This document shows positions 22,746 to 41,900 of a stretch of DNA of 64,000 nucleotides, piece by piece. The DNA comes from Phycisphaerae bacterium. GTDB lineage: Bacteria > Planctomycetota > Phycisphaerae > Sedimentisphaerales > Anaerobacaceae. The notes beneath the pieces are model-generated. The model ran no database searches and was not told where the DNA came from. It was given only the letters and a program-made list of their open reading frames with translations. Within the stretch, counting starts at the first letter, position 1. Each line of letters starts with the position of its first letter. A program made the translations under genes and the position numbers. The stretch is from assembly GCA_028714855.1 (NCBI GenBank), contig JAQTLP010000001.1:250572-314571 (forward strand). The letters run 5' to 3'.

Positions 22746-25700
22746 TTACCAATTTTCCATACAACCCGTGTCCTCCGGGTCATTACACAGCAGCCACTGC
22801 TCAGCAAAACGGGCGAAATCGAAGAGGTCAACATTGCCGTCCGTCGGCGTAAAGTCAGCACCTTCGCAGTTTTCCTCCTCGGCGCAATCGGTATGCAGCC
22901 AGTTGTCGGCTATGATTTTGAGGTCTTCGTAGTTAACGTAGCAATCACCGCTGATGTCCGAGGTCAGGCCATAGCCTGCGTCCAGGATTGCGTCGCAATC
23001 AGGCGAGGTTGTGCCCGTCAGGTGGATGGTGGTGATTGAATACGCCGGCAGCGTCAACCCGGGACTGTACGGTCCGAGATATAACCAATGTTCCGTCTCG
23101 CTGCTTCGGTAAATCTCCGAACTGCTCGGTATAAATCCCTTCAGCGTAAACATCAAGTCTGCACCGGCTGCGGATGTGTTGAGCATCACTATCGTCAATT
23201 GGTCGTTCTCAGGGCTCTTAAAGGCGGTTATTCGCAGGTCGTCCGAACCTGTCCCCTCAAGAAATACATCAACCATATACCAGCCGGGGTCGGTAAAGTA
23301 TGCGTAATGCTTGAAGAACCAGTAGAGGTCACGAACTATATACGTAGAAGGGTTGGTAATATTAATCATACCGCCTTCGCCCCAGCCTCTGAACAAGGAC
23401 CAGTGATAATACGAAGTTACACCTTCATATACCAGGCAATTGTAAATGTGCTGTGCGAGCAATACGGCATCGCCGAATGATGGAACCGCGTCGGCGGAAT
23501 ATTCCGTTTGGAACAACGGCTTATAGCCATAGAGGGCGTTATAATTTAGCATTCCCTGAATCATGCCGTCAGGGCTGTAGTAGCTGCCGTCGCTGTAAAG
23601 ATGGTGTGAGAATCCATAGACGTGGTCTATCTGACCTCTATTGACTAACGCATTGATATATGCCCGCGAACTGCCGAAGCCCATTGCTTCCGGGGCGAGC
23701 ATCTTCGGCATAGGCGAAACGCTTCCATTTAGCCTGTTATAGACCGCCTCAAACGCCTGGTCGTAGCCGGCGTAGTTTGCATCTTCTACCGGGTTGAATC
23801 TACAGACCTGATCCTGCTGCCCCCAATCCGGCTCGTTTTGAATACTTATGTAATCGGGGTAAATACCGACGCTGTTCCAGCCGTATAAACCTGTCAAACT
23901 GTTGAGCCACCACGTCGCATAGTCGGCATACACATAATTACTTGGACCGCCTGCGAGGGTTGAGTTCAGTGTTCCTAAATCTCCGCTGCTTTTAAGATAA
24001 GCCGCGGGCGACCAGGGAACCAGTAGAAGCTTTAAATTCGGGTTACGCGTCGCCTGCCTTGCTGCTGCGACGATTTGCCCTGTGGCGTTTATTTCGTAGT
24101 AATTGATTTCATATGTGTTTTTTATCCTTAAAACGTCGAGACCGAGGTCTCTGAACAGAAGGTCGTAAACTGCTTCCCTGCTCGAGTAGTTTGCAAGAGT
24201 TCCTGATTCATAGCAAGCGGAACCGCCGAAACCTTCGAGCTGCTGATAAACGATGTTAACATTCGCCTCACCTCTAATCTCAGGCAATTCCTCGGCTTCT
24301 ATACTATCCAGCATGATGTCTTCGAAGTACACGGTATCTGCATCTCCTGGGTTGCCGTCGCCGAAGCCGATGGTAATCTTCGCAACATTGGCAAGGTTCG
24401 CATCGGCGAATTCTGTCAGCGAAATGCTCCACTCGTTCCATTGTTTCAGCCAGACAGTGTTCATATTGCTGTATATTACAGTCGCGGTATGCGGAGGGCT
24501 GTCACCGTCGGTCAGCTTCACGTACAGTTGTTCACTAAAAGGATTATTTGGTTCAACGTGGAATCGCACTACCAGTGCTTTAGCACCGGTGCCGAGCCAG
24601 TCAGGGTCGTCCATTCCCAAATCAGCGATGTCTGCGCAGACCTCGGAGTAGTATGGCGGGAGGTTATTTTTATAAAGATACCTCATTGAGTTACCATTGC
24701 GAACGATAGCAGTCTCGACAGAAACTTCCGCGCTGGTGCCGCTGTTTTGCCATACATTCCGCAGGGCAGAGTTATCCTCATACGAGTCAAAATCTTCCAC
24801 AACAAAATCCGGTAATGTTCTAAAGCTCCAGGTTTCGCTTTTGAAGATTGTGTAGTCAGGCGCAGCATTGACTTCGTCAACCCGCCAATAGTAGGTTGTG
24901 TTTAATTTGAGAAGACCCGCAGCGCCATAAGGGTCATAAGTGTTGGATTCCTGGCCTTGACTAACCAGTACGCCCAGCGTATTACTCCTGTTAGCGTCAG
25001 TTACTGCGGTTTCATTTGTTCCGAAGTATATATCGTGTGTTTCAGCAAGTCCGCCCTGTAACCAGCTAAGGACAGCATCTATCGGTGCGTCTTCCGCTCC
25101 GTTAAACGGCACCGGACGCTGGGCATATGGTGTCTCGGCAAATGCTATCGATGCGTTCGGCTCCACCTGTATGGCGTTGACAAAGGCAAAAGGCTGGTTT
25201 TCTGGACTGCTTGGGCCCCTTTCGCTCGTCAGGATAATTCTGCCAAAATCATCCGATGTGGCTCTTGCGCTAAAGGCCCACTTCCAGAAATCATTAGAGG
25301 AGCTGGAAGAATAGTTATCAGGCAGAGGCTGATTTATCACTCCGCCGATGAAATCGGCATCAAAAAGATGTGTGCCGTTGGCATACCATTGAGCGACTCG
25401 ATTGACATCTGTGACTTGACTGTCCCATGACCATATGGTTATGTTGCAGTCCCGGTTGGTGCCAAGTCCCCATAGCGTGATTGTAACTCCGCTCGGATTA
25501 ACACCGTAGACAAAATCGCGATAAATCCTCTCGCCTGCCCGCGGGGAATAATAGCATGGGTCGCCCGGGAGCAAGGGTGTGCCGGCATATCTCGCCCATC
25601 CTCCGCAAGGGTCGTCGCGTCTGGCTGAGTTAATGGTGCCGCTGAGGTCAATTATAATACCATTTACTTCACTGCCGCTGGTTGCAATGCTAAGCGGCAT

Positions 25701-26147
25701 AAAGCCGGCCTGAGTATTGGGTTCATCATTGTTTATTGTGTGGTTAAGGTCCAGCCGCAGTACTGGTGGTGTAGTTACAGCATCGGTGGTTGCCGAGCGA
25801 GCAAGCGCCCAGCTGGTCATATTCAAAGCGCTGTCACGTGCCCTGACCCTGAATGTGTACACAGTACTCTCAGTAAGGCCTGTAGCAATGTAATTGGTGT
25901 CTGTTTGCCATGTGCTGCTGGCTGAGGGGATATTGGAGCACTCAAACAAGTACTGTATGGGAACACTACCGGCTTGATCCAAAGCAGTTACTGCAGCCAT
26001 CTGAATTGAGTTTGGCCCAAGTGTTATCGGGACAATCCGCCACTTTGCCGGGACCGGCCTTGGAGCAGTGGTATCTGCGCCGTAACAGGGTGATAAAACA
26101 AGGGCTGAAATCAAAAGCAAATACAGGGGAAAATATTTAACAGACAT
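22746..26147 (-). CDS. Secreted multidomain GH30 glycoside hydrolase
   Basis: About 1133 residues, with the same module order as its neighbours: signal peptide, FnIII-like, VLRLDLN beta module, FnIII-like, CBM-like jelly roll, GH30, dockerin-like. The catalytic part (about 625-1055) carries acid/base Glu774 and nucleophile Glu884 (counted from the upstream ATG) in SIQNEPD and FQTEYS. It lacks the WWYIKR loop of the downstream paralogue, so its GH30 subfamily and specificity probably differ; a (glucurono)xylanase is the likely type. AAGGAGG is 9 bp from the second ATG (26147) but only 3 bp from an upstream ATG at 26153, so the second is preferred. Secreted. Confidence 0.86.
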   Translation of the reverse strand: MSVKYFPLYLLLISALVLSPCYGADTTAPRPVPAKWRIVPITLGPNSIQMAAVTALDQAGSVPIQYLFECSNIPSASSTWQTDTNYIATGLTESTVYTFRVRARDSALNMTSWALARSATTDAVTTPPVLRLDLNHTINNDEPNTQAGFMPLSIATSGSEVNGIIIDLSGTINSARRDDPCGGWARYAGTPLLPGDPCYYSPRAGERIYRDFVYGVNPSGVTITLWGLGTNRDCNITIWSWDSQVTDVNRVAQWYANGTHLFDADFIGGVINQPLPDNYSSSSSNDFWKWAFSARATSDDFGRIILTSERGPSSPENQPFAFVNAIQVEPNASIAFAETPYAQRPVPFNGAEDAPIDAVLSWLQGGLAETHDIYFGTNETAVTDANRSNTLGVLVSQGQESNTYDPYGAAGLLKLNTTYYWRVDEVNAAPDYTIFKSETWSFRTLPDFVVEDFDSYEDNSALRNVWQNSGTSAEVSVETAIVRNGNSMRYLYKNNLPPYYSEVCADIADLGMDDPDWLGTGAKALVVRFHVEPNNPFSEQLYVKLTDGDSPPHTATVIYSNMNTVWLKQWNEWSISLTEFADANLANVAKITIGFGDGNPGDADTVYFEDIMLDSIEAEELPEIRGEANVNIVYQQLEGFGGSACYESGTLANYSSREAVYDLLFRDLGLDVLRIKNTYEINYYEINATGQIVAAARQATRNPNLKLLLVPWSPAAYLKSSGDLGTLNSTLAGGPSNYVYADYATWWLNSLTGLYGWNSVGIYPDYISIQNEPDWGQQDQVCRFNPVEDANYAGYDQAFEAVYNRLNGSVSPMPKMLAPEAMGFGSSRAYINALVNRGQIDHVYGFSHHLYSDGSYYSPDGMIQGMLNYNALYGYKPLFQTEYSADAVPSFGDAVLLAQHIYNCLVYEGVTSYYHWSLFRGWGEGGMINITNPSTYIVRDLYWFFKHYAYFTDPGWYMVDVFLEGTGSDDLRITAFKSPENDQLTIVMLNTSAAGADLMFTLKGFIPSSSEIYRSSETEHWLYLGPYSPGLTLPAYSITTIHLTGTTSPDCDAILDAGYGLTSDISGDCYVNYEDLKIIADNWLHTDCAEEENCEGADFTPTDGNVDLFDFARFAEQWLLCNDPEDTGCMENW

Positions 26148-26181
26148 CTTCATGTTCCTCCTTAAGAGCGTATTTGGAATT

Positions 26182-29100
26182 TTACCAGTTTTCTATACAG
26201 GCCGTGTCAGCAGGATCGTTACACAGCAGCCACTGCTCGGCGAAACGTGCTAAGTCAAAAAAGTTAACATAGCCGTCCGTTGGTGCAAAATCAGCACCTT
26301 CACAGTTTTCCGGCTCGGTGCAGTCGTCCAGCCAGTTATCGGTTATTATTTCAAGGTCTTCGTAATTAACGTAGCAATCACCGCTGATGTCTGAGGTCAG
26401 GCCATGGCCTGCAGCGAGGACACTATCACAGTTTGAGCAAGAGGCATTGCTTATAGTGGTGATTGACCGCCTCGGTAGAATCAGCACACTGTTTTCATCG
26501 AAAGGACCGATATATACGGTATTCTCTGTTTCGCTGGTGCGGTATATTCCGGAATTATTTAGCGGGAAACCATTCAAATTAAGCGTTAAGCCCATATTGT
26601 CATAGGAGAGGTTTATCAGCACAATAGATAGCTGCTGGCCATCTGGGCTTTTGTAGGCTGAAATACGTAAGTCGCCCCGGTCGCCCAAATCAGTCCAGGT
26701 TCTGACGCGATGCCATCCTGGGTCGGTAAATGCCGCATATTGCTTGAAGGCATAATAAATAGGATTAGGGGCGAAGGTAGCTCCTCCCGTGGGGCTTCCC
26801 ACGTAATTTATGAGGCCTTTAGGCGGTGTCCAGAATAGCTCCCAATAAACATACGCCGATGCGTTCTCGAAAACCAGGGTATTGTGCATCAGCTGTGCCA
26901 GGTTCATTGCCTCAGGGAAAGTAGTTACATCTCCGTCGTCGTCACCCTTCGAGAACTCTGTCATCATCCGTGGCTTATTATTGTAATAATCGCGGTAATA
27001 TTGCATAGAGGTGATGTAGCCGTCGGGGTTGTAGTAGCTGCCGCCGCCGTTGTAAAGGTGGTGAGCATAACCGTAAACATGACTCAGATTTGCAAGACTA
27101 TCGATATATTGGTAGAGTCTATAAAAACCGGCGGTTTCGGGAGCAAGCATCTTCGGCATATTCGGTCCCATTCGCGAATACAGCTCTTCGTAAACTTTTT
27201 CGAAGGCCTGACGATAACCGGCAAAGTCCGCGTTTTCTGAAGGTTCGAATCTGCAGGATGCCCAGCTTGCTACATAGTCAAGTTCGTTTTGTATATTTAT
27301 ATAGTCGGCAACTACGCCTTGATTGCCCCATTCTTCCAGACTGTCCGCCCACCATTCTGCAAACCTTTTGTATATATAATAGTGGGGGGCGCTGTTATTG
27401 GGGTCAGTAGCGTCTTTTATAAGGGTGCCGCCGTTTTCCAATATGCCGTTACTTTTGAAAGAGGTCGGCGGTGACCATGAGGAAATCATAACCTTTAACG
27501 ATGGATTACGTGCCTTCCCGCCTGCGATGATTTGGGCCGAACGGTTTAGGTAACCACTGTCGTAACCGTAACTATTCCGTACTCTGTAAATGTCAAGACC
27601 AAGCTCATCAAACACAGCATCATAGAGCTTCTCTCTCTCGGTCTGGGACAGAGTATCCAGTACCTCGTATTCATGCCAGCTGGCGGCGGCTCCGAAACCT
27701 TCGAGTTCCTGGTAAACGGTGTTAGCATATACCTCGCCAGCAGCACTCTGGTATCTATCGAATCTACTATCCAGCGTGATATCTTCGAAGTACACGGTCC
27801 CTGCATCTCCGGGGCTGCCGTTGCCGAAGCCGATGGTAATCTTCGCAACATTTGACAGATTTACGCCGGTAAATTCCGTCAACTCAATGCTCCAGTTGTT
27901 CCATTGTTTCAGCCTGACATCGTTCATATTGCTGTATGTTACGGTTGCGGTATGCGGAGGATTGTCACCGTCGGTCAGCTTAACATACATCTGCTCATCT
28001 ATGGGGTTGGATGGTTTGCCGTAGAAATACAACACTAATGTGTTAGCGCCGAGGCCAAGCCAGTTGGGGTCATTTATTCCCAAATCAGCAACATCCGTGC
28101 TAACTTCGGAATAGTATGGCGGGAGATTATTATTATAAAGATACCTCATCGAGTTGCCGCTGCGGGCGATAGAAGTCTTGACAGAAACTTCCGCGCCGGT
28201 GCCGCTGTTTTGCCATATGTTCCGCAGGGCTGCGTGGTCCTCATACGAATCAAAATCCTCCACAACGGCAGTCGGCGATGTCCTAAAACTCCAGGTTTCG
28301 CCTTTAAAGATTGTGTTGTCTGGTGCGGAATTGACCTCATCAATACGCCAGTAGTAGGTTGTGTTTAATTGGAAAAAACCCGCAGCGCCATAAGGATCAT
28401 AAGTATTAGGTTCCTGGTCTTGACTAACCAGTACGCCCAGCGGATTACTTCTGTTAGCGTTGGTTACTGCTGTTTCATTTGTTCCGAAATATACATCGTG
28501 TGTTTCAGCAAGTCCGCCCTTTAACCAGTTAAGGGCCGCATCTATTGGTGCGTCTTCTGCTTCGTTAAACGGCACCGGACGCTGGGCATATTTTGTAGGG
28601 ATGAACGGTATCAGGGCGTTCGGCTCTACCTGTAAGGCGTTGACAAAAGCAAAGGGCTGGTCTTCCGGACTGCTTGGGCCCCTTTCGCTCGTCAGGATAA
28701 TTCTGCCTAAATCATCCGATGTGGCTCTTCCGCTAAAGGCCCACTTCCAGAAATCATTAGAGGAGCTGGAAGAATAGTTGTCCTGCAGAGGCTGATTTGC
28801 CGCTCCGCCGATGAAATCGGCATCAAAAAGATGTGTGCCGTTGGCATACCATTCAGCGACCCGATTGGCATCTCCGGTGCTTTGGCTGTCCCATGACCAT
28901 ATGGTTATGTTGCAGTCCCGGTTGATGCCAAGTCCCCATAGCGTGATTGTAACTCCGCTCGGATTAACACCGTAGACAAAATCGCGATATATTTTTTCGC
29001 CTGCCCGCGGGGAATAATAGCACGGGTCGCCAGGCATCACGGGAGTGCCGGCGTATCTCGACCATCCGCCGCAGGGGTCATCACGTCTGACTGTGTTAAT

Positions 29101-29613
29101 GCTGCCGCTTAGGTCAATTATAATACCATTTACCTCGCTGCCGGTGTTTGTAGTGCTAAACTGAACAAAACTGGTCTGTGTGTTTGGTTCGTTATTGTCT
29201 TGGGAGTAGTTAAGGTCCAGCCGCAGTACTGGTGGTGTAGTTACAGCGTCGGTGGTTGCGGAGCGAGCAAGCGCCCAGCTGGTCATATTCAAAGCGCTAT
29301 CACGTGCCCTAACCCTGAATGTATGCACAGTACTCGGGGTAAGGCCTGTAGCAATGTAATTGGTGTCTGTTTGCCATGTGCTGCTGGCTGCGGGGTTATC
29401 GGAGCACTCAAACAAGTACTGTATGGGAACACTACCGGCTTGATCCAGAGCAGTTATTGCAGCCATCTGAATTGAATTTGGCCCAAGTGTTATCGGGACA
29501 ATCCGCCACTTCGCCGGGACCGGCCTTGGAGCAGTGGTATCTGCGCCGTAACAGGGTGATAAAACAAGGGCTGAAATCAAAAGCAAATACAGGGGAAAAT
29601 ATCTAACAGACAT
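26182..29613 (-). CDS. Secreted multidomain GH30 glycoside hydrolase
   Basis: About 1143 residues, first gene of the four-hydrolase operon and built like the next two. The catalytic domain (about 630-1065) has acid/base Glu779 and nucleophile Glu888 (counted from the upstream ATG) in NIQNELD and MMTEFS; the usual NEP is NEL here. It is closer to the 22746-26147 paralogue than to the XynC-like one. The dockerin-like tail starts near DISGDCYVNYEDLEII and ends in Asn-Trp. The ATG at 29613 is 9 bp after AAGGAGG; the ATG two codons earlier is too close. A strong promoter lies 157 bp upstream. Predicted secreted xylanase or glucuronoxylanase. Confidence 0.86.
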   Translation of the reverse strand: MSVRYFPLYLLLISALVLSPCYGADTTAPRPVPAKWRIVPITLGPNSIQMAAITALDQAGSVPIQYLFECSDNPAASSTWQTDTNYIATGLTPSTVHTFRVRARDSALNMTSWALARSATTDAVTTPPVLRLDLNYSQDNNEPNTQTSFVQFSTTNTGSEVNGIIIDLSGSINTVRRDDPCGGWSRYAGTPVMPGDPCYYSPRAGEKIYRDFVYGVNPSGVTITLWGLGINRDCNITIWSWDSQSTGDANRVAEWYANGTHLFDADFIGGAANQPLQDNYSSSSSNDFWKWAFSGRATSDDLGRIILTSERGPSSPEDQPFAFVNALQVEPNALIPFIPTKYAQRPVPFNEAEDAPIDAALNWLKGGLAETHDVYFGTNETAVTNANRSNPLGVLVSQDQEPNTYDPYGAAGFFQLNTTYYWRIDEVNSAPDNTIFKGETWSFRTSPTAVVEDFDSYEDHAALRNIWQNSGTGAEVSVKTSIARSGNSMRYLYNNNLPPYYSEVSTDVADLGINDPNWLGLGANTLVLYFYGKPSNPIDEQMYVKLTDGDNPPHTATVTYSNMNDVRLKQWNNWSIELTEFTGVNLSNVAKITIGFGNGSPGDAGTVYFEDITLDSRFDRYQSAAGEVYANTVYQELEGFGAAASWHEYEVLDTLSQTEREKLYDAVFDELGLDIYRVRNSYGYDSGYLNRSAQIIAGGKARNPSLKVMISSWSPPTSFKSNGILENGGTLIKDATDPNNSAPHYYIYKRFAEWWADSLEEWGNQGVVADYINIQNELDYVASWASCRFEPSENADFAGYRQAFEKVYEELYSRMGPNMPKMLAPETAGFYRLYQYIDSLANLSHVYGYAHHLYNGGGSYYNPDGYITSMQYYRDYYNNKPRMMTEFSKGDDDGDVTTFPEAMNLAQLMHNTLVFENASAYVYWELFWTPPKGLINYVGSPTGGATFAPNPIYYAFKQYAAFTDPGWHRVRTWTDLGDRGDLRISAYKSPDGQQLSIVLINLSYDNMGLTLNLNGFPLNNSGIYRTSETENTVYIGPFDENSVLILPRRSITTISNASCSNCDSVLAAGHGLTSDISGDCYVNYEDLEIITDNWLDDCTEPENCEGADFAPTDGYVNFFDLARFAEQWLLCNDPADTACIENW

Positions 29614-29634
29614 CTTCATACGCCTCCTTATCAG

Positions 29635-31613: not shown

Positions 31614-32585
31614 TTGAAAGTTCAGTGCGAGCTATGCCCGAAAAGCTGTCTGATTGAGCCCGGCCAGAGCGGCGAGTGCCGGGTCAGAATTAATATCGAC
31701 GGCGTATTACGGACGGTAGTATACGGCTACCCGTGCTCAGCGCACGTTGACCCTGTCGAGAAGAAACCATTTTTCCATTTCCTGCCCGGCAGCAAAACGT
31801 TTTCACTTGCGACCGTCGGCTGCAACCTTCACTGCAAAAACTGCCAGAACTGGGAAATATCACAGGCCAATCCCGAAGACAGCGTTGCGTCATTATGCCC
31901 GCCTGAAAAACTTGTCGAGCTGACCAGAAGCTATGATTGCCAGTCGCTGGCATATACCTATACAGACCCGGTTGTTTATTACGAATATACTTATGATTCT
32001 GCCGAGCTTGCGAGGGTAAATGGAATACGAAATCTGCTGATAACGGCCGGCTATATAAACCGCCAGCCGTGGCAGCGGTTACTGAACGTTGTGGATGCCG
32101 CCAGAATTGATTTGAAGTCAATGTCGGATGATTTTTATCGGGATGTTTGCTCCGCGACACTAAAGCCGGTGCAAGATGCCATCATTCAGACAAGAGCAAG
32201 CGGCGTTCATCTTGAAGTGATACACCTCGTTATCCCAACGCTGAACGATAAGCCCGAACAATTGCGCGAGCTTTCGCGCTGGGTCAGGGCAAACCTCGGC
32301 AGCGAAATCCCCCTGCATTTTTCAGGATTTTATCCGCAGTACAAGATGCGGCATCTGCCGCCGACATCGGCGGAAACACTGGATATGGCTCGTAACATCG
32401 CTATGGAAGAAGGGCTTGACTTTGCTTATATAGGAAATGTTCAGAGTGAAAATGGCCAGAACACATATTGTCCCGGCTGCAAAAAAGTACTCATCGAACG
32501 TGTTGGTTATACTGTTATCCAAAACCGTTTGAAAGACGGTTCCTGTCCTGATTGCGGCAGGGAAATTTACGGAGTTTGGAAATGA
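31614..32585 (+). CDS. amrS: AmmeMemoRadiSam system radical SAM enzyme
   Basis: 323 residues, starting on TTG. Cys70, Cys74 and Cys77 (GCNLHCKNCQNW) bind the radical SAM cluster. An N-terminal cysteine set (CELCPKSC, plus Cys22) and a C-terminal zinc-ribbon-like pair (CPGC...CPDCGR) frame the barrel, as in the AmrS family related to pyruvate-formate-lyase activases. The family occurs with AMMECR1 and Memo proteins, as it does here; the reaction is unknown. It is first in the operon, and its stop overlaps the next ATG (ATGA). AT-rich DNA with TATAAT-like boxes lies at 31553 and 31566, but no good -35 box was found. Confidence 0.88.
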   Translation: MKVQCELCPKSCLIEPGQSGECRVRINIDGVLRTVVYGYPCSAHVDPVEKKPFFHFLPGSKTFSLATVGCNLHCKNCQNWEISQANPEDSVASLCPPEKLVELTRSYDCQSLAYTYTDPVVYYEYTYDSAELARVNGIRNLLITAGYINRQPWQRLLNVVDAARIDLKSMSDDFYRDVCSATLKPVQDAIIQTRASGVHLEVIHLVIPTLNDKPEQLRELSRWVRANLGSEIPLHFSGFYPQYKMRHLPPTSAETLDMARNIAMEEGLDFAYIGNVQSENGQNTYCPGCKKVLIERVGYTVIQNRLKDGSCPDCGREIYGVWK

Positions 32586-32761
32586 CGCGAAGAAAATTCA
32601 TTCAGCAATTTCTAAAAGCCGGGGCGGCTGTTGCTGTCGGCGTTTACTGGCTGGCAGAAAAAGCTTCACCCCGCAAGTTTATTCGAGCGAGATTTGGGAA
32701 GTATCCCGGCGTCTTAAGGCCCTTAAAGGATATTCACGAACAGGGTAAATGGAGTGGTTAA
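32582..32761 (+). CDS. Small protein with twin-arginine signal
   Basis: 59 residues. The start TRRKFIQQFLKAGAAVAVGVY is a Tat-type signal: Arg-Arg-Lys-Phe followed by a mildly hydrophobic helix. The remainder is a short basic stretch (PRKFIRARFGKYPGVLRPLK). Its ATG overlaps the stop of amrS and its stop is 1 bp before the next ATG, so it is translationally coupled to both. It contains no cysteines, so it is not itself a metal-cluster protein. It may be a membrane-anchored accessory peptide, or the remnant signal of a larger exported redox subunit. Confidence 0.65.
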   Translation: MTRRKFIQQFLKAGAAVAVGVYWLAEKASPRKFIRARFGKYPGVLRPLKDIHEQGKWSG

Positions 32762-32762
32762 T

Positions 32763-34334
32763 ATGGATAGATACTCAAAATTTTTTTTACCGGGTTTTAT
32801 GCTTGGCATATTTTTATTGGGAGGGTGCGATCCAAAACCTGTCGCTCCGGTTAAAGAAATAGCGAGAGCTAAAGCAGATGAACCTGCGGCCCATGCCAAG
32901 GTTGTTTTCAGGTCAACACTTTCGGGTAGCTGGTATTCTGCCGACGCTAAAACACTGAGTGAACAAATCGAGGGGATTTTCGAAAAAGCCGATGTTGAGC
33001 CGATAAATAATGTTATCGCCCTTATCCTTCCGCACGCCGGCTACCAGTACTCCGGCCGGACCGCCGCTTTTGGATTGAAGTCTGCCGGCAGGCAATATAA
33101 AAGGGTGATTGTAATTGGCCCCAGTCATCGTGTCCCTATGGAAGATGTGCTCAGTGTCCCCATGGCGACGCATTACGAAACGCCGCTCGGACAGGTGCCG
33201 CTTGATGTGGAATTTATAAATAAGCTTTTGGAGCATCCGATATTTCAGAACATACCGCAGGCGGACGAATATGAACACAGCACCCAGATAGAGGTGCCGC
33301 TGCTGCAATATGTGCAGAAAGATTTTAAGCTTGTGCTGATTGTGGCCGGCGACTGCTCGGTGGAAACAATTGCACAGGCCGGCGCTATCTTGAAGAGTTT
33401 GGTTGATGATGACACGCTCGTTATTGCAAGCTCCGATTTTACCCATTATGGTCCGAACTATGGCTACGTCCCATTCAGGGAAAAGATACCTGAACAGCTA
33501 AAAAAGCTCGATATGGGTGCGTTCGAGTATATCAAGGCCCTGGATTACAAAGGCTTTTTGGAATATCGTAGTAAAACCGGTGCAACAATATGCGGGTTTG
33601 TGCCGATATCGATATTGCTTTCGATGTTAGACGAAACCGTTGAGACTAAATTGATTAAATATACGACTTCCGGCGAACTGACGGGAGATTTCTCCAACTC
33701 GGTCAGCTACTTTTCGATTGCTTTTTCGGGTAAGTGGGGACACTCTTCCCAAATTAAACCGGAGGCGAATGTCAGTGAATTGAGCAAAGAAGACAAAAAG
33801 CAGCTTTTGACCCTGGCCCGCAAATCGTTGGTTTATTTTTTGCGTAACCGAAAGGTCCCCGATGTATCGGAGCTGAATGTCACGGCCAGTGACGCAATGA
33901 AACTTCGGCGGGCGGCGTTTGTAACGCTTGAAGAAAATTCTCAGCTTAGAGGCTGTATAGGCGATATCTTTCCGCGACAGCCTTTGTATAAATCGGTCAT
34001 CTCCAACGCCATTAACGCCGGCGTCAATGACAGACGTTTCCGCCCGGTAACGGAAGCCGAATGTAACGATATTAAAATCGAGATATCGGCGCTGACAGCG
34101 CCTAAACCAATTGCTTCATCGGATGAAATCAGAATTGGTATAGACGGCGTGGTGCTGAATAAAAATGGTTACGGGGCCGTGTTCCTGCCTCAAGTTGCGC
34201 CCGAACAGGGCTGGAATATAAGCCAGATGCTCACACAGTTGTCTCTCAAAGCGGGGCTGCCCTCAGACGCTTGGAAGGAAGGCGCGAGCTTTCTTGTTTT
34301 TCAGGCGGATGTTTTTGGCGAGGATGAGAAATGA
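32763..34334 (+). CDS. AmrB (Memo)-AmrA (AMMECR1) fusion lipoprotein
   Basis: 523 residues. A lipobox (LLGGC, Cys22) places it on the outer face of a membrane. Residues about 45-325 are the Memo domain, with LPHAGYQYSG (89-98), GPSHRVP (119-125), SSDFTHYG and ICGF (Cys277), matching the His/His/Cys metal pocket of Memo proteins. Residues about 340-520 are AMMECR1 with its LRGCIGD motif (395-401). The two are separate proteins in many genomes; fusion and export are unusual. GGAG 8 bp ahead supports the ATG at 32763 over a GTG three codons earlier. Its stop overlaps the next gene by 4 bp. Confidence 0.87.
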   Translation: MDRYSKFFLPGFMLGIFLLGGCDPKPVAPVKEIARAKADEPAAHAKVVFRSTLSGSWYSADAKTLSEQIEGIFEKADVEPINNVIALILPHAGYQYSGRTAAFGLKSAGRQYKRVIVIGPSHRVPMEDVLSVPMATHYETPLGQVPLDVEFINKLLEHPIFQNIPQADEYEHSTQIEVPLLQYVQKDFKLVLIVAGDCSVETIAQAGAILKSLVDDDTLVIASSDFTHYGPNYGYVPFREKIPEQLKKLDMGAFEYIKALDYKGFLEYRSKTGATICGFVPISILLSMLDETVETKLIKYTTSGELTGDFSNSVSYFSIAFSGKWGHSSQIKPEANVSELSKEDKKQLLTLARKSLVYFLRNRKVPDVSELNVTASDAMKLRRAAFVTLEENSQLRGCIGDIFPRQPLYKSVISNAINAGVNDRRFRPVTEAECNDIKIEISALTAPKPIASSDEIRIGIDGVVLNKNGYGAVFLPQVAPEQGWNISQMLTQLSLKAGLPSDAWKEGASFLVFQADVFGEDEK

Positions 34335-37300
34335 AATCTGCCCGAGGCCTGCTTGTTTTCAGTTACGGGTTGTTTACTATCGCCGCCCAGTCTTTGCTTT
34401 TTCGAGAATTCACAACCGCCTTCGAAGGCAGTGACATAAGCGTCGGTGTATTCTTCAGTTCGTGGTTTTTATGGGTCGGCATGGGGGCGCTGCTCGTATA
34501 TAAAAACACGACCTTTGCCGGCAAGCTCCTTAAAAATATTGAATTCCTGTTTTTATGTTACCTGCCTGCCTTTATCGCGGAGCTTGTTTTGATTATTCAT
34601 GCGCGCCAGCTTGCGGGCATCGCGCCTTATGTGCTGATACCCATAAAGGCAATCGTGCTTTTATCAATCGCTGTTAATGCGCCGGTCAGCATCATTACGG
34701 GAATGCTGTTTCCAATTGCCTGCCGCTGGGTTCGAAGTGAGGATGAGCTCGCCGTTTCACGAGTGTATATTCTCGAAGCGGCGGGAAGTTTTCTCGGCGG
34801 GCTGGGGACAACTTTGCTCTTGGCTTTCGGTGTAAGCTCGGCAAGGATTTTCTTCATACTTGCTTTTATTATTTCTCTTTCATTCTTTTTAGTACGTTTT
34901 GCGAAGTCGAAGAACATGACGTGGGCTTTGGTGCCGGCGTGTATCTTCGTTTGCCTATTCGCCGGTGTTGACAATAAACTGTCACGACAGCTCCAGATTA
35001 TAAAGTGGGAAAAGCTGCTTCCGAAAGATACTCTGCAAGGTTCCTTTCAAACAGCCCAGGCGGAGTATTTATATGGTGTCTATCATGATCAGTGGGTGGC
35101 TGTCCGCGAAGGCAGCACTTGCGAGGTCTTGCCTGACAAAACTAACGCCGGCCGAATAGCGGCCATCGGCCTCTGTCAAAATCCTGATGCTAAAAGGGTT
35201 TTGGTCGTCGGTTCCGGGCTGGGGTTGTGTTACCAGTTTCTGAATTTGAGACAAATAGAAAAAGTGACTTGGGCAAATAGTGACAGCGAATATGTTCAGA
35301 AGGTCAGCGATTTTATACCACTAAAATTTAGAATTGATGACCAGCGGTTAAATCTGCTAAGCGGTGACATTCGCTCGTCGCTTGCCGGAGAGAAACAATA
35401 TTACGACTTGGTGATTCTTAATCTGCCGGATGCGACCAGCTCAGTTCTAAACCGGTATTACACTCTCGAATTTTATCGTCAGATTAAAAATGCGATGCGC
35501 CCAGATGGTGTGCTGGCAGTCCGAATAGCGGGCGGGGAAAACATTATGGGTACCGAGCTGATTAACCTCGGCGCCTCGACGAAATTGACGCTTCAGAAGG
35601 TTTTCTCACAGCTTGTCTTGGCGCCCGGCGATGATACATGGTTTATCGCATCTGACTCCGGAAAACTCACCGGCGACCCCGGCAGCTTACGGGACCGCTT
35701 TGCGGCCATAAAGGGCGGCCCAGATATTTTCCCGCCGCGGGCTCTGCTTTCTGTTTATCTGCCGGATAGGGCCTCAATTGCGATGGAGAATTATTCGGGT
35801 GCGGATTTGCCTGATAGACTGCTTATTAATCGCGATTCCAGACCGCTGACGTATTTATACAGTTTGTTGCTCGCGGCCAAACAATCAGGAGCGCCGGGAA
35901 CAAAATTTATTAAATACCTTGTGCTGGCAGGCTCCCTCGTATTTGTTGTCCCCATCCTGATTTTTATAGTTTTGCGTCTTATTTACATTTTGAAAACAGC
36001 TCAGCGAGGTAGTCCCTCGAGTTTCGATAGTTCGTTTTTGGTTTTCTCAGCCGGCTGGGTCGGCATCGGTGTCGTGATTGTTCTGATGTATTTATATCAA
36101 ACTTACTTCGGTTCGCTTTACCTTTATATCGGTGTTATTTCTTCCTTGTTTATGGCAGGCTTGAGCGTGGGGGCTGTTCTGGTTAGGTATTTACTTTCGG
36201 GCAAATGGAGGTTAAAACCGCAAATCCTGTTATTCGCATCAATATTTGTTTATACGGCAGTTTTGACCGCAATCATCTTTTGGCCGGGGCAGCAATGGAC
36301 GCATCCGTACTTTGCCGTTGCGTTTGTTCTTTGCGGCCTGTGCGCAGGCTGTTTCTTCCCGCTTGCTGCAAGACAGCTTGCTGATTCCGCTTTTGAAACG
36401 GGCGAGATCGGCAGCAAATTGGAAACTGCCGACCACATTGGTGCTTCAGTAGGAGGATTACTGACAAGCCTTGCTCTTGTTCCTGTGCTTGGGACGAAGG
36501 TCACGTTATTTATATTTATTCTGCTCGTTCTGGCTAATATTCCCACTGTCGTCCTGAGACTATATGCGCCGGAAAAAGTTCGCTATTCGGCTGCAGCCGT
36601 TTTTAAGCTGCGCAGGCTCGGCTACATCCTGTTTGGTATTGGACTGTCTGTTACCATCTGCTCGAATCTGCTTAATAAAACAAGTGGTCAGCTAAGGTCA
36701 TCTCTGCCGCAGGATGTTGCCCATGCGCTGGTCGGCCGGGCACACCTTGAACTGGTCTCGGCGACCATCGGCGATAATGCCCGCAAGATTAATTATTTTA
36801 GAGTTTATGATGCTGATGAAAAACTAAACGGCTATATTTTCAGCTCCGCAGATTTGGCGCCGGAGGTTACAGGTTTCGGCGGAAAGATTAATCTGGCCAT
36901 TTACGTGGATACCGCTGGCAGGTTAATTAAGTTCGATATAACATTGTCCAATGAAACTCCTTCGTATCTTGAGCTTCTTACCAATTGGCGGCAGTTTCTC
37001 ACAGGCCGTCAGCTTTTCCAGCCGGGACCTTTCACCGGTATTAATGCGACAACCGGTGCAACCTTTAGCTCTAAGGCGATTCTCTCTGCGTTGGAAAAAT
37101 CCGGTGTCAGGTTCGCCGGCGAAATCCTCGGCAATACCCCGCCCGCGTTGCCGCTTGCGCAACAGGCGAGATGGCCCGGCGCCGCAGGATTATATTTGAT
37201 AACCGCTTTCATCCTCGCCATTATTGTAATCTACCGTGGCGGGTTCTGGGGTCGCCTTACCGTCCTTTGCTTCAATCTTATCGTCGGCGGCATTATCCTG

Positions 37301-38155
37301 AACGCCCAGTATTCAAGCGACCAGATAGTGACACTGTTGTCTTTGCACGTTCCTCCAATAGGATTATCGGGAACCTTTTTGCTGGTTGTGGGAGTCCCGC
37401 TTTTGGTGATAATCTTTGGTAATATCTATTGCGGCTACGTCTGTCCTTTCGGCGCTGCGCAGGAACTGCTCTGTTATATTATTCCTCGCAGATTTAAACC
37501 TGCCCTCTCCGTCGAATCGATACAAAAGGCAGGTTTCGTCAAATATGTTATCCTTTTTGTTTTGATAATGATGTTCTTTGTCTCCAGAAATCGGGCGACG
37601 CTGGCGGCAGACCCGCTTATCGCTGCCTTTTCAGGTAGTTCCATGTTATATACGGCCGTCGCAGGCTTGATAATAGCGATAGCTTTAGTCGGCTCGGTTT
37701 TTTATACCCGCTTCTGGTGCCGGTATTTGTGTCCGGTGGGAGCTTTCCTGTCTCTGCTCAACAAGGTAGCTCTACTGAATCGGTTTTTACCCGTAAAAAG
37801 GTTCGGCAGATGCGAGTTCGGCCTTACTGCAAAAGACACTGATTGTTTATATTGTGACAGGTGCCGCTATCAGACCCAGGAGGTTGCCTCTGCTTCCGGT
37901 TCTGCGTCTTTTCTGTCTCGTTATCTCGTAGTGATTGTTATCGTGGTGGGAATTTTTGTATCAATGGCTTCATTGAATAGATTCCGGGATGTCATTCCCG
38001 CCGGCATCAGCCAGCCTGTTGTTTCAATATCAGGCGCCGGCCAGCCGAGGGATGTCGATTTGCAGCGCGTCCGCACAATGATTCAGCAGAGAAAACTATC
38101 CGACAAAGAAGCTGAATTTTATAAAAAGGCTGAGGATAATCAACGGCGGAAATAA
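34331..38155 (+). CDS. Giant membrane protein: spermidine-synthase-like, FMN-binding and Fe-S modules
   Basis: 1274 residues. Order: about seven helices (1-215); a cytoplasmic Rossmann domain like spermidine synthase (290-470, motif VVGSGLGL, then LPDATSSVLNRYYTLEFY); about six more helices (525-745); an exported FMN-binding domain (about 800-935) with the TTGATFSS motif (907-914), where Thr911 would carry covalent FMN; four to five helices; and NapH/NosR-type cluster motifs Cys1034-x3-Cys1038-Pro, Cys1130-x3-Cys1134-Pro and C-x2-C-x2-C at 1172-1178. It ends with a helix and a charged tail. Electrons probably cross the membrane between flavin and clusters. The role of the synthase-like domain is unknown. 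It overlaps the AmrBA gene by 4 bp. Confidence 0.85.
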   Translation: MKSARGLLVFSYGLFTIAAQSLLFREFTTAFEGSDISVGVFFSSWFLWVGMGALLVYKNTTFAGKLLKNIEFLFLCYLPAFIAELVLIIHARQLAGIAPYVLIPIKAIVLLSIAVNAPVSIITGMLFPIACRWVRSEDELAVSRVYILEAAGSFLGGLGTTLLLAFGVSSARIFFILAFIISLSFFLVRFAKSKNMTWALVPACIFVCLFAGVDNKLSRQLQIIKWEKLLPKDTLQGSFQTAQAEYLYGVYHDQWVAVREGSTCEVLPDKTNAGRIAAIGLCQNPDAKRVLVVGSGLGLCYQFLNLRQIEKVTWANSDSEYVQKVSDFIPLKFRIDDQRLNLLSGDIRSSLAGEKQYYDLVILNLPDATSSVLNRYYTLEFYRQIKNAMRPDGVLAVRIAGGENIMGTELINLGASTKLTLQKVFSQLVLAPGDDTWFIASDSGKLTGDPGSLRDRFAAIKGGPDIFPPRALLSVYLPDRASIAMENYSGADLPDRLLINRDSRPLTYLYSLLLAAKQSGAPGTKFIKYLVLAGSLVFVVPILIFIVLRLIYILKTAQRGSPSSFDSSFLVFSAGWVGIGVVIVLMYLYQTYFGSLYLYIGVISSLFMAGLSVGAVLVRYLLSGKWRLKPQILLFASIFVYTAVLTAIIFWPGQQWTHPYFAVAFVLCGLCAGCFFPLAARQLADSAFETGEIGSKLETADHIGASVGGLLTSLALVPVLGTKVTLFIFILLVLANIPTVVLRLYAPEKVRYSAAAVFKLRRLGYILFGIGLSVTICSNLLNKTSGQLRSSLPQDVAHALVGRAHLELVSATIGDNARKINYFRVYDADEKLNGYIFSSADLAPEVTGFGGKINLAIYVDTAGRLIKFDITLSNETPSYLELLTNWRQFLTGRQLFQPGPFTGINATTGATFSSKAILSALEKSGVRFAGEILGNTPPALPLAQQARWPGAAGLYLITAFILAIIVIYRGGFWGRLTVLCFNLIVGGIILNAQYSSDQIVTLLSLHVPPIGLSGTFLLVVGVPLLVIIFGNIYCGYVCPFGAAQELLCYIIPRRFKPALSVESIQKAGFVKYVILFVLIMMFFVSRNRATLAADPLIAAFSGSSMLYTAVAGLIIAIALVGSVFYTRFWCRYLCPVGAFLSLLNKVALLNRFLPVKRFGRCEFGLTAKDTDCLYCDRCRYQTQEVASASGSASFLSRYLVVIVIVVGIFVSMASLNRFRDVIPAGISQPVVSISGAGQPRDVDLQRVRTMIQQRKLSDKEAEFYKKAEDNQRRK

Positions 38156-38397: not shown

Positions 38398-39531
38398 TTA
38401 CATTGTTTTCTTTTTATTGCACTTGATACTCAGGGCTGCCGTGATGATTTGCGGAGATGGCTTGCGGGCGTTGACTAAAATATCCTTTAATCGGCTTGTA
38501 TCAGGTGCGCTGTTGAATACGGGGATATTTGTAAATTCTGACAGCTCCCTTATATGCAAAGGAGAGCTTGAGCATATACCCGATATGGCATCGGGCGTTA
38601 AATTGAATTTTTCCTTCAAGGTCCGCAGTCCGCCGATTGCCCCGAACGCGTCATTGGCGCAGAAAATCAGTCTGTGAATCCTCGACGTTACCTCCGGCGA
38701 ACTGAGCAGCATTGCGGTCTCGCGCTGAATGACACCATCAGCAATCTCAACGACCCAGAAATTCTTGGGATTGTTTGCATACTTCAGGTCAAGCTGGTTG
38801 AAAATGCCTAACAGTTCCTCCCTTGTCGTCAGATATGTCGATGGATAACCCAGATGTGTGAAATCGGCATAGCGACTGGCGCCGGCGTCGTTCATATGAA
38901 GAATATCTTTAAGGCTGGCTGTCCCGGTAATCTTGGAGGCCCTTACATTGTAGCCGATGGCTGTCAATGCCCAGCAGCAGGCCGCCGCTGCCATACTTTT
39001 ACCGCTGTTCATCGATGTCCCGCATACTAAAATCATTCGCGACCGAGGCTCTTTTTTTATCGTCTTTCTGGGCTTTATAAGGGGAAAATCCCGCGTGTTT
39101 AAAACATCGCCTTTTTCATCACAAACGTATCCTAAAAGTCTCACTTTTGTCGGGTCTTTTATCATCGAATTTTTGGTTTTGACGACGCCGACCACTCCCG
39201 AGCGGGCAATGAGGTCAACCTCCTCTGTCATCTCGCTAGGCACTAAACCCTCGTAGTAATCGGGGGCATACCTGTTTCCAAACACAAAAATTGCTTTTGT
39301 GCCGTCGTGAATCATATGTATGCGCCCCAAGGCGTTTTCCATGGACGAGTGCTGCCCGATACAGTTGATTATTCCGTAAACGAGGTCTCCTGCCTGCGGC
39401 GGCTTATCAAAAAGCCGGTAGTATTTGATTTGGCTTGGTTTTATCGTGAGCGCAGCGCTTGGGAAAATAAACCCTTTGCTTATTTTCTTAGTCGTTATTT
39501 TGCTCGTCGGTGATATTGTCAAAATTGTCAT
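38398..39531 (-). CDS. P-loop NTPase-like protein (DUF1611-like)
   Basis: 377 residues. The first 170 form a beta-rich domain (KYYRLFDKPPQAGDLVYGII). A Walker A motif GTSMNSGKS lies near 171-179, followed by ASKITGTASLKDILHMNDAGASRYADFTHLG, and VVEIADGVIQRE is a Walker-B-like segment, as in the DUF1611/dethiobiotin-synthetase-like group. It is probably a cytosolic nucleotide-dependent enzyme of unknown substrate. It overlaps the upstream dksA-like gene by 44 bp, so the two are probably co-expressed; no better internal start was found. Confidence 0.6.
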   Translation of the reverse strand: MTILTISPTSKITTKKISKGFIFPSAALTIKPSQIKYYRLFDKPPQAGDLVYGIINCIGQHSSMENALGRIHMIHDGTKAIFVFGNRYAPDYYEGLVPSEMTEEVDLIARSGVVGVVKTKNSMIKDPTKVRLLGYVCDEKGDVLNTRDFPLIKPRKTIKKEPRSRMILVCGTSMNSGKSMAAAACCWALTAIGYNVRASKITGTASLKDILHMNDAGASRYADFTHLGYPSTYLTTREELLGIFNQLDLKYANNPKNFWVVEIADGVIQRETAMLLSSPEVTSRIHRLIFCANDAFGAIGGLRTLKEKFNLTPDAISGICSSSPLHIRELSEFTNIPVFNSAPDTSRLKDILVNARKPSPQIITAALSIKCNKKKTM

Positions 39532-40464: not shown

Positions 40465-41016
40465 ATGAACAACCCTGTTCCTACACAGATATTCCTGACC
40501 AAAGGAGTCGGACAGCATAAATACCAGTTGAAGTCCTTCGAGGTGGCGTTAAGACAAGCCGGCGTAGCACAGCAGAATTTAGTGCAGGTATCTTCAATTC
40601 TGCCGCCGAGGTGCAAGGTTATCAGTCTGGAGAACGGATTGAAAAAACTGATTCCGGGACAAATATCCTACTGCGTGCTGGCAAGGGCCGATACCGATGA
40701 GCACGGACGTTTAATAGCTTCTTCGATAGGAGTCGCACTGCCCAAAGATGAAGACCAGTGGGGATACCTCAGCGAGGTGCACGGCCACGGTAAGAACAGC
40801 CAGCAGGCCGGAGACCTCGCTGAAGACTTGGCAGCTGGTATGCTGGGAACAACTTTAGGACTGGAGCTTGACCCTGACCAGGCCTGGTCGGAAAAAGAAC
40901 AGGCTTACAAATCCAGCGGCCTGTTTGTTAAAACCACCAATATTACACAGACCGCAAAAGGACAGGAAGGGCTGTGGACGACAACAGTGGCAATAGCAAT
41001 GTTTTTGTTTGATTAA
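40465..41016 (+). CDS. Pyruvoyl-dependent arginine decarboxylase
   Basis: 183 residues, the normal size of PvlArgDC. The proenzyme cuts itself between Ser43 and Ser44 in QVSSILPP, giving a beta chain and an alpha chain whose Ser44 becomes the pyruvoyl group. GVALPKDEDQWGYLSEVHGHG and the C-terminal FVKTTNITQTA match the family. It converts arginine to agmatine and CO2 in the cytoplasm. AGAAGGAG stands 8 bp before the ATG. It lies 20 bp from the agmatinase gene, forming a two-step putrescine pathway. Confidence 0.93.
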   Translation: MNNPVPTQIFLTKGVGQHKYQLKSFEVALRQAGVAQQNLVQVSSILPPRCKVISLENGLKKLIPGQISYCVLARADTDEHGRLIASSIGVALPKDEDQWGYLSEVHGHGKNSQQAGDLAEDLAAGMLGTTLGLELDPDQAWSEKEQAYKSSGLFVKTTNITQTAKGQEGLWTTTVAIAMFLFD

Positions 41017-41036: not shown

Positions 41037-41900
41037 ATGAAAGAAGCGATTAACTTCGGGTTTCTGCCTGAAGAACATTCTAATCCGGAAAATGCAGGCA
41101 TTGTTATTATTCCCGTCGCCTACGACGGAACAAGCACCTGGCTCAAAGGCGCAGACGAAGGGCCGGCGGCGATAATGGAAGCCTCTGCCAACATGGAGCT
41201 TTACGATATAGAGACCGATTCGGAGGTTTACAAAAAAGGCATATTTACCGAAGACATTATAGGCGGAGAAATCTCTACTAAGGAGATGGTTGAAGTAGCT
41301 ACGGAAATAACAAAGTATTATCTCGAAAAAGGCAAGTTCACGGTGGTCATAGGCGGGGAGCACTCGGTCAGCATCGGCCCGATTAGAGCCTATGCGGAAC
41401 AATATGATAACTTGACCATCTTGCAGCTGGATGCTCACTCCGATTTAAGAGAGGAATACAACGGCTCAAAATTTAACCACGCCTGCGTTATGGCCCGCGC
41501 CAAAGAGCTTTGCCCGGTTGTTCAGGTTGGTATCAGGAGTATGGATTACTCCGAAAAAAAATCTATGGATACGTCAAAGGTATTTTTTGCAAAGGACATA
41601 TACGACAACACCGACTGGATTAAGAAAGTTATTTCCAAACTCTCCGATAATGTGTACATAACAATCGACCTCGACGTGTTCGATCCTTCCATAATGCCTT
41701 CCACCGGCACCCCTGAGCCGGGCGGATTATTATGGTATGATGTGCTTGCTTTATTGAAGGCAGTTGCCGGCAAGAAAAATATCGTCGGCTTCGATGTCGT
41801 CGAGTTATGCCCCGGCGAAGAGAACAAGGCCCCCGACTTCCTCGCCGCCAAGCTCATCTACAAGCTCCTAAGCTATAAGTTTGAATCTGGTAATAAATAA
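41037..41900 (+). CDS. speB: Agmatinase
   Basis: 287 residues. The ureohydrolase manganese ligands are visible: GGEHS (His109), DAHSDLR (Asp132, His134, Asp136) and DLDVFDP (Asp211, Asp213). It hydrolyses agmatine to putrescine and urea, completing the route opened by the adjacent arginine decarboxylase. Arginase is less likely given that neighbour. Same operon, same strand. Putrescine could feed an unseen spermidine pathway. Confidence 0.93.
   Translation: MKEAINFGFLPEEHSNPENAGIVIIPVAYDGTSTWLKGADEGPAAIMEASANMELYDIETDSEVYKKGIFTEDIIGGEISTKEMVEVATEITKYYLEKGKFTVVIGGEHSVSIGPIRAYAEQYDNLTILQLDAHSDLREEYNGSKFNHACVMARAKELCPVVQVGIRSMDYSEKKSMDTSKVFFAKDIYDNTDWIKKVISKLSDNVYITIDLDVFDPSIMPSTGTPEPGGLLWYDVLALLKAVAGKKNIVGFDVVELCPGEENKAPDFLAAKLIYKLLSYKFESGNK

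Follow-up and report, generated by a model that had tools for sequence, protein, structure and literature searches.

The 64,000-nucleotide stretch of DNA analysed here (the window), from a Phycisphaerae bacterium of the order Sedimentisphaerales (assembly GCA_028714855.1, contig JAQTLP010000001.1), carries at positions 31614 to 38155 a four-gene operon that combines the AmmeMemoRadiSam proteins AmrS, Memo and AMMECR1 with a giant membrane protein. To our knowledge, the Memo/AMMECR1/AmrS trio has no assigned function. The operon is read here as an AmmeMemoRadiSam system that works outside the cytoplasm and is fed electrons by a dedicated membrane protein, a proposal whose chances we take to be about even. 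A fuller version is advanced more tentatively, at slightly less than even: AmrS, a radical S-adenosylmethionine (SAM) enzyme, would work outside the cytoplasm, exported by twin-arginine translocation (Tat) through its own or a detached signal and powered by a docked flavin mononucleotide (FMN)/iron-sulfur (Fe-S) protein, with AMMECR1 and Memo on the same side. Each part comes from a known family, and what seems new is the way in which they are combined.

The operon and its conservation

31614..32585, + strand: AmrS, TTG start (TIGR04337, 367.5 bits, cut-off 220)
32582..32761, + strand: Tat59, a 59-residue Tat-signal open reading frame (ORF), read by eye, overlapping amrS by ATGA
32763..34334, + strand: Memo-AMMECR1 fusion with a lipoprotein signal (LGGC), after a 1-bp gap from the Tat59 ORF
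34331..38155, + strand: 1274-residue membrane protein (the giant protein), with an ATGA overlap with the Memo-AMMECR1 gene

ORFs and profile searches confirm the operon at these coordinates, with the tight coupling (ATGA overlaps, one gap of 1 bp) that the original prediction had described. The domains that it had called (AmrS, Tat, Memo-AMMECR1, SpeE-like, FMN and NapH/NosR) likewise hold in profile searches, which match AmrS, Memo, AMMECR1, Spermine_synth, FMN_bind and, twice, Fer4_5, and find similarity to NosR/NapH. Membership in the AmmeMemoRadiSam system is indicated by scores above the NCBIfam cut-offs (AmrS 367.5 against 220 bits, Memo 220.5 against 26, AMMECR1 163.2 against 99), by the presence of the three genes in a single operon and their being kept together in relatives, and by an intact radical SAM CxxxCxxC motif and intact Memo metal ligands.

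In relatives the four genes follow one another as they do here (AmrS, Tat peptide, Memo-AMMECR1, giant protein), so the operon is not a product of chance. This order, for which the original prediction had advised a search, is seen in nine further fetched genomes of the same order (loci L033-L040 and L060, of which L060 is cut by a contig end and L038 lacks FMN/NapH) and in named loci of Planctomycetota, Verrucomicrobiota, Hydrogenedentota and Myxococcota (L061, L063, L065, L069, L082 and L093); L097 and L138 hold the same elements in a different arrangement. These relatives were found by alignment search of genome contigs, a single-protein query with the fusion having given no matches. More widely, a module of exported Memo-AMMECR1, AmrS and a major facilitator superfamily (MFS) transporter with a SpeE-like insert occurs in at least eight phyla, and exported Memo-AMMECR1 accompanies AmrS in members of the class, Acidobacteriota, deltaproteobacterial lineages, KSB1, Calditrichota and others. 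Many such loci encode a protein of 700-850 residues that resembles residues 1-745 of the giant protein, without the FMN or NapH part. In G206 (L043), Memo and AMMECR1 are two adjacent genes, and AmrS and the giant protein are missing. The genome from which the window comes (2.3 Mb, estimated 98% complete) holds a second AmrS, Memo and AMMECR1 on three other contigs, a scattered set that is apparently cytosolic.

Signals for export

32916..33725, + strand: Memo domain, residues 52-321 (TIGR04336, above cut-off)
33801..34316, + strand: AMMECR1 domain, residues 347-518, with the LRGCIG core (TIGR04335, above cut-off)

The original prediction had parts of this system exported, which the sequences support: Memo-AMMECR1 has the N-terminal lipobox LGGC, and Tat59 a putative twin-arginine signal. 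Nearly all Memo fusions with an adjoining AmrS have a signal, an anchor or a lipobox. That Memo-AMMECR1 is a lipoprotein anchored at the cytoplasmic membrane, on its outer face, is strongly supported by sequence. The Memo iron ligands are intact in the exported protein. H91, H122 and C277 align with H49, H81 and C244 of human MEMO1, the iron ligands of that protein (PMC11081632), and these three residues, together with the AMMECR1 LRGCIG core, are invariant across 24 fusions.

AmrS of the window begins right at the first CxxCPxxC and lacks the N-terminal segment of canonical AmrS. Elsewhere the signal is part of the enzyme: 34 AmrS among the fetched loci have an N-terminal twin-arginine signal, a linker, usually a segment EAxFYEKL, and then the first CxxC (five of these fused-Tat forms, one of them L149, were added by eye after the script had missed the signal). 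AmrS that start at the CxxC, referred to below as split, number 23. In 21 of them a small Tat or Tat-like gene comes next; the other two are Pontiellaceae, whose Memo also has no signal. The pairing of split AmrS and small gene spans Planctomycetota, Verrucomicrobiota, Hydrogenedentota, Lentisphaerae, Myxococcota, Gammaproteobacteria (Sedimenticola), Nitrospirota and Omnitrophota. For L078 and L122 the signal state is unclear because of the start position. AmrS had been treated as cytosolic in the original prediction, a view not supported by the relatives, most of which carry a Tat signal on AmrS itself, and the AmrS of the operon probably works outside the cytoplasm too, to judge from these sequence patterns.

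Phylogeny sets these enzymes apart. In a tree of 108 AmrS, the fused-Tat and split forms and a few unsignalled subfamilies make up one clade (SH-aLRT 100), outside which fall the canonical AmrS, including the second AmrS of the same genome. Split AmrS form one group (support 85) plus L138, and a second tree is similar. Eleven cysteines are invariant in canonical, split and fused-Tat forms, with the exception of C289, which two of the 23 split rows lack. All 33 canonical AmrS have T204 and W234, residues lost in nearly all exported ones, and N145 of canonical AmrS is lost in all split ones. The common clade, the kept cysteines and the changed T204, W234 and N145 together mark the exported type as a subfamily of its own that is apparently active.

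Tat59 is the proposed Tat export partner of AmrS. It has a putative twin-arginine signal, TRRKFIQ, in which RR and F are conserved in relatives, a hydrophobic stretch, and a C-terminal tail YPGxxKPLxxI...GKWxG that is conserved in Planctomycetota, Verrucomicrobiota, Hydrogenedentota and Lentisphaerae. A search of the phylum with a Tat59 profile gave one further clear case, L154, next to AmrS; its other hits were weak and fell within longer open reading frames. In L138 the C-terminal end of the Tat peptide is an AmrS N-terminal segment, EKKAMFWKRLG (0 of 20,000 shuffles as good), and the end of the L097 Tat peptide, LREADFYTEHPLAG, resembles this segment more weakly (p 0.014). As a general rule, the idea that the Tat59 tail is the lost AmrS N-terminus was dropped, only L138 and, weakly, L097 giving a match.

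A Syntrophaceae genome has two Tat-signal AmrS genes side by side (L206 398-1534 and 1510-2616). DUF362-type proteins lie between or beside exported Memo-AMMECR1 and AmrS in the fused-Tat loci L041, L046, L047, L050, L051, L079, L118 and L140; one of these calls is Pfam-confirmed, and several of the proteins have Tat signals. In L095 (4568-6871), a single chain joins an N-terminal hydrophobic anchor, Memo, a truncated AMMECR1 and AmrS, which, unless it is an assembly error, would fix AmrS on the same side as Memo. It is kept out of the main evidence because the AMMECR1 part is truncated and the chain comes from a single metagenome contig.

An AmrS motif on the giant protein

38045..38152, + strand: C-terminal tail after the last transmembrane helix, with LSDKEAEFYKKAED, motif residues 1258-1267

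The last ~30 residues of the giant protein form a separate conserved tail. The AmrS N-terminal motif [HK]EAxFYxK, which is absent from split AmrS, recurs on this tail or on a neighbouring small membrane protein. When a matrix from the N-terminal segment of non-split AmrS was scanned over 1.2 million sequence windows of the fetched ORFs, 15 of the 16 best non-AmrS matches fell in split-type loci: one in the L138 Tat peptide, the others on the giant-protein tail or on a small single-helix membrane protein beside the giant protein (L065, L069 and L097). L138 also has a small motif-bearing protein that scores slightly lower. In L038, the FMN and NapH parts are lost and the tail with its motif is retained. 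Because the tails are related to one another, they amount to one similarity kept in six lineages rather than fifteen independent ones.

Predicted electron supply

36743..37129, + strand: FMN_bind domain, ~residues 805-933 (PF04205, 30 bits, profile match at 848-923)
37052..37069, + strand: predicted flavinylation motif TGATFS, residues 908-913 (sequence, alignment)
37376..37783, + strand: NapH/NosR-like membrane Fe-S part with two CxxxCP motifs, residues 1016-1151 (Fer4_5 53.8 bits, NosR 55.6 bits)

NapH-like flavinylated proteins are transmembrane electron carriers that feed or drain many oxidoreductases, and their flavinylation motif is [S/T]GA[S/T] (PMC8238504). The original prediction called a covalent-FMN domain in the giant protein, and the FMN domain does carry the ApbE motif, TGATFS. 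Compared by sequence with the PDB, this domain comes closest to RnfG and to a flavinylated FMN domain. A Foldseek search with the FMN/NapH model finds nothing at E <= 0.001, with RnfG and NqrC leading at E 0.01-0.03. A further cysteine cluster lies C-terminal to the CxxxCP motifs. Counting of charges in short loops fits an inside N-terminus in 43 of 44 proteins (902 K/R inside, 286 outside). On this basis the FMN domain and the C-terminal tail would face outwards and the cysteine motifs of NapH inwards, in keeping with the type. The ApbE flavin transferase for which the original prediction advised looking is in the genome as a single gene, adjoining one that reads as RnfB (L147, C7 171000-178500), and TatC is present as well. 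ApbE adjoins the operon in L036, L065 and L093 and lies near Memo loci L058, L123 and L134. Freely varying neighbours, a missing FMN domain or a destroyed Memo pocket had been named beforehand as grounds for rejection; none of these appeared.

The FMN/NapH half follows the state of AmrS. FMN_bind is found in 16 of the 17 split-type loci long enough to show it versus none of 33 fused-Tat loci. A search of 46 genomes in the order found the giant protein in 11. An operon-type AmrS is present in ten of them; in the eleventh, G222, the giant gene sits at a contig start, and the other 35 genomes have neither. Fisher values (7e-11 and 3e-12) ignore relatedness, and in the first of them G222, an incomplete genome, was scored as positive for both genes. 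Near the exported trio of two Acidobacteria are NapH-like Fe-S proteins with extra Fer4 clusters and without FMN_bind nearby (L118 4887-6842 and L124 7743-9449), L118 also having DUF6599.

The MFS/SpeE-like half

34331..34969, + strand: N-terminal MFS half, ~residues 1-213, six transmembrane helices and one extra hydrophobic helix (predicted model, hydropathy)
34994..35845, + strand: SpeE-like Rossmann domain, ~residues 222-505, Asn at the catalytic Asp position
35900..36565, + strand: extra transmembrane helix and C-terminal MFS half, ~residues 524-745 (predicted model, hydropathy)

The SpeE-like, FMN and NapH parts of the 1274-residue protein had been recognized in the original prediction, which missed the ~30-residue tail and the MFS fold of the first 745 residues. 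The predicted structure of residues 1-790 (pLDDT 89.7, pTM 0.88) matches MFS structures over residues 1-745 (Z 21-26) and the spermidine synthases 1uir and 3anx over ~222-490 (Z 25, Foldseek E 8e-11), and a Spermine_synth profile matches residues 276-396. A Pfam search of the giant protein finds no MFS family by sequence. From the matches of the predicted model to both folds, residues 1-745 make up an MFS transporter whose two halves are separated by an inserted SpeE-like domain. Aminopropyl transfer by this domain is doubtful, because the catalytic Asp of the SpeE DxxDP loop aligns with Asn and the TIGR00417 score falls far below the family cut-off (37.4 against 249.6 bits). The two extra helices flanking the domain are as hydrophobic as the other transmembrane helices, and the adjoining charges do not decide its side; if both cross the membrane, the SpeE-like domain would lie outside.

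Genes for a putrescine route, a pyruvoyl-dependent arginine decarboxylase (40465-41016) followed by an arginase-family, agmatinase-like gene (41037-41900), lie 2.3 kb downstream of the operon on the same strand, near the SpeE-like gene. As partners of the SpeE-like domain these polyamine genes were rejected, no homologue being present in the compared loci. Other neighbours in the window are a pair of large proteins encoded side by side on the minus strand, 1135 and 1145 residues long (22746-26153 and 26182-29619), and a 377-residue protein (38398-39531) with a P-loop-like GTSMNSGKS, none of which has a Pfam match.

Proposed mechanism and alternatives

In the proposed mechanism, AmrS would fold with its Fe-S clusters in the cytoplasm and then cross the Tat translocase on the separately encoded Tat59, in the manner of the Tat hitchhiking known for NiFe hydrogenases (PMC10924467). 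Outside, it would dock on the giant protein at its predicted outer tail, as the sequence similarity between the two suggests. The NapH/NosR-like part would draw electrons from quinol or the cytosol and hand them to a covalent FMN at the outer face, and this FMN would reduce the AmrS cluster, standing in for a cytosolic flavodoxin or ferredoxin. An exported radical SAM enzyme would need a supply of a SAM-type compound outside; more speculatively, the MFS/SpeE-like half might move or bind a substrate, perhaps a SAM-type nucleoside, SAM or SAM cleavage products. Memo and AMMECR1 would act on the same substrate on the same side.

The main rival, itself unlikely, keeps AmrS in the cytosol, where it would modify the conserved C-terminal part of Tat59 (YPG...GKWxG); the Tat pathway would export the product, and Memo-AMMECR1 would finish it outside with electrons from the giant protein. 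The Tat59 gene directly follows amrS, and the small proteins of nine loci (the window, L063, L065, L093, L097, L138, L154, L190 and L202) end in glycine, mostly as [WL]xG; the nearest relatives of AmrS, the glycyl-radical-enzyme activases, act on a glycine near a C-terminus. A substrate role for Tat59 is hard to square with the 34 loci in which the Tat signal is on AmrS itself and a free Tat peptide was not found, or with the AmrS N-terminal segment borne by the L138 Tat peptide. Somewhat less probable again is the model of the original prediction, in which AmrS is cytosolic or incidental and the transmembrane electrons serve the exported Memo iron site or AMMECR1. Memo is indeed exported, its His/His/Cys site is intact and corresponds to an iron-binding site of human MEMO1 (PMC11081632), and the FMN domain and Fe-S part are in the same operon. 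Fused-Tat loci export Memo too, yet lack the FMN/NapH half, and the tail motif is common to AmrS, not Memo. Because FMN/NapH tracks the split state of AmrS and not the state of Memo, because most relatives have a Tat signal on AmrS, and because the tail carries an AmrS motif, exported AmrS is the more likely electron user on this sequence evidence.

The direction of electron flow could also be reversed, an improbable reading in which the exported enzymes oxidize a substrate and the FMN part, as recipient, feeds quinone through NapH. Radical SAM enzymes need reducing electrons, and the conserved neighbours include no conspicuous gene for an oxidase or a cytochrome, both of which speak for a reducing supply; NapH-like flavinylated modules are nevertheless known to serve reductases and oxidases alike (PMC8238504). 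Least probable is an ordinary operon in which the exported trio and the fused modules adjoin without working together. L038, which has lost FMN/NapH, would fit it, as would the SpeE-like gene that occurs without FMN_bind outside the split clade; conservation of order and co-occurrence across phyla, and the joining of ApbE to the locus in several lineages, point the other way.

Several observations weigh against an exported AmrS with its own electron supply. Signal states disagree in L077, where Memo is anchored and AmrS has no Tat signal, and in L075 and L110, where a Tat-AmrS is in the genome and Memo has no visible signal. Tat59 scores below the cut-off of Pfam TAT_signal (PF10518, 13.8 against 22.7 bits). 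The window Tat59 tail (YPG...GKWSG) has no similarity to the AmrS N-terminus (p 0.95), so the argument for a split subunit rests on L138 and, weakly, L097. The model of the FMN/NapH half is weak (pLDDT 69), and the association of FMN_bind with split AmrS may represent one or two events, because split forms belong mostly to one clade. FMN could act as an electron acceptor instead. An AmrS outside the cytoplasm would need a source of SAM there, and the literature searched, which omits most subscription journals, contains no exported radical SAM enzyme.

Relation to known systems

All three proteins exceed the curated cut-offs of the AmmeMemoRadiSam system (TIGR04335, TIGR04336 and TIGR04337). 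Unlike that system, Memo and AMMECR1 are here fused and exported, AmrS belongs to the exported-type clade and has a separate Tat peptide, and the same genome also holds the scattered, apparently cytosolic set. With the NapH-like flavinylated systems (Meheust et al. 2021, PMC8238504) the operon has in common a PF12801 Fe-S membrane protein, an FMN-binding domain with [S/T]GA[S/T], and an ApbE gene, present in the genome and, in relatives, next to the operon; it differs in the fusion to an MFS/SpeE-like protein and in having Memo, AMMECR1 and AmrS as partners. The main text of that paper uses none of the terms AMMECR1, Memo, radical SAM and spermidine. Fused MFS/spermidine synthases (NF037959) and the polyamine aminopropyltransferase PRK03612 (NF002956) resemble the giant protein in combining an MFS fold with a SpeE-like domain by predicted structure, and among the relatives tested two score above the NF037959 cut-off. 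The window protein itself scores below both cut-offs (23.2 against 40 and 74.3 against 472), has Asn for the catalytic Asp, and also carries FMN_bind, NapH and the tail. Tat hitchhiker NiFe hydrogenases (PMC10924467) likewise place the Tat signal on one partner and leave the adjoining enzyme without one, whereas the proposed passenger here is a radical SAM enzyme. The literature searched has AmmeMemoRadiSam in passing mentions only and never joins AMMECR1, MEMO1 and a radical SAM enzyme; given the omission of most subscription journals, this is no proof of novelty.

Implications

Conservation of AMMECR1 and MEMO1 extends to humans, and the operon makes the function of these families newly testable. 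Because the parts are predicted to lie on one side of the membrane, are linked to a predicted electron path and are encoded in a single operon, the search is narrowed and each link can be tested singly. The substrate must be reachable from outside, and the reaction probably consumes low-potential electrons. For genome annotation, changed T204 and W234 provide a sequence rule that separates exported AmrS from canonical AmrS. If AmrS does work outside, the assumption that radical SAM chemistry is cytosolic would be broken, and the question of how SAM is delivered there would arise.

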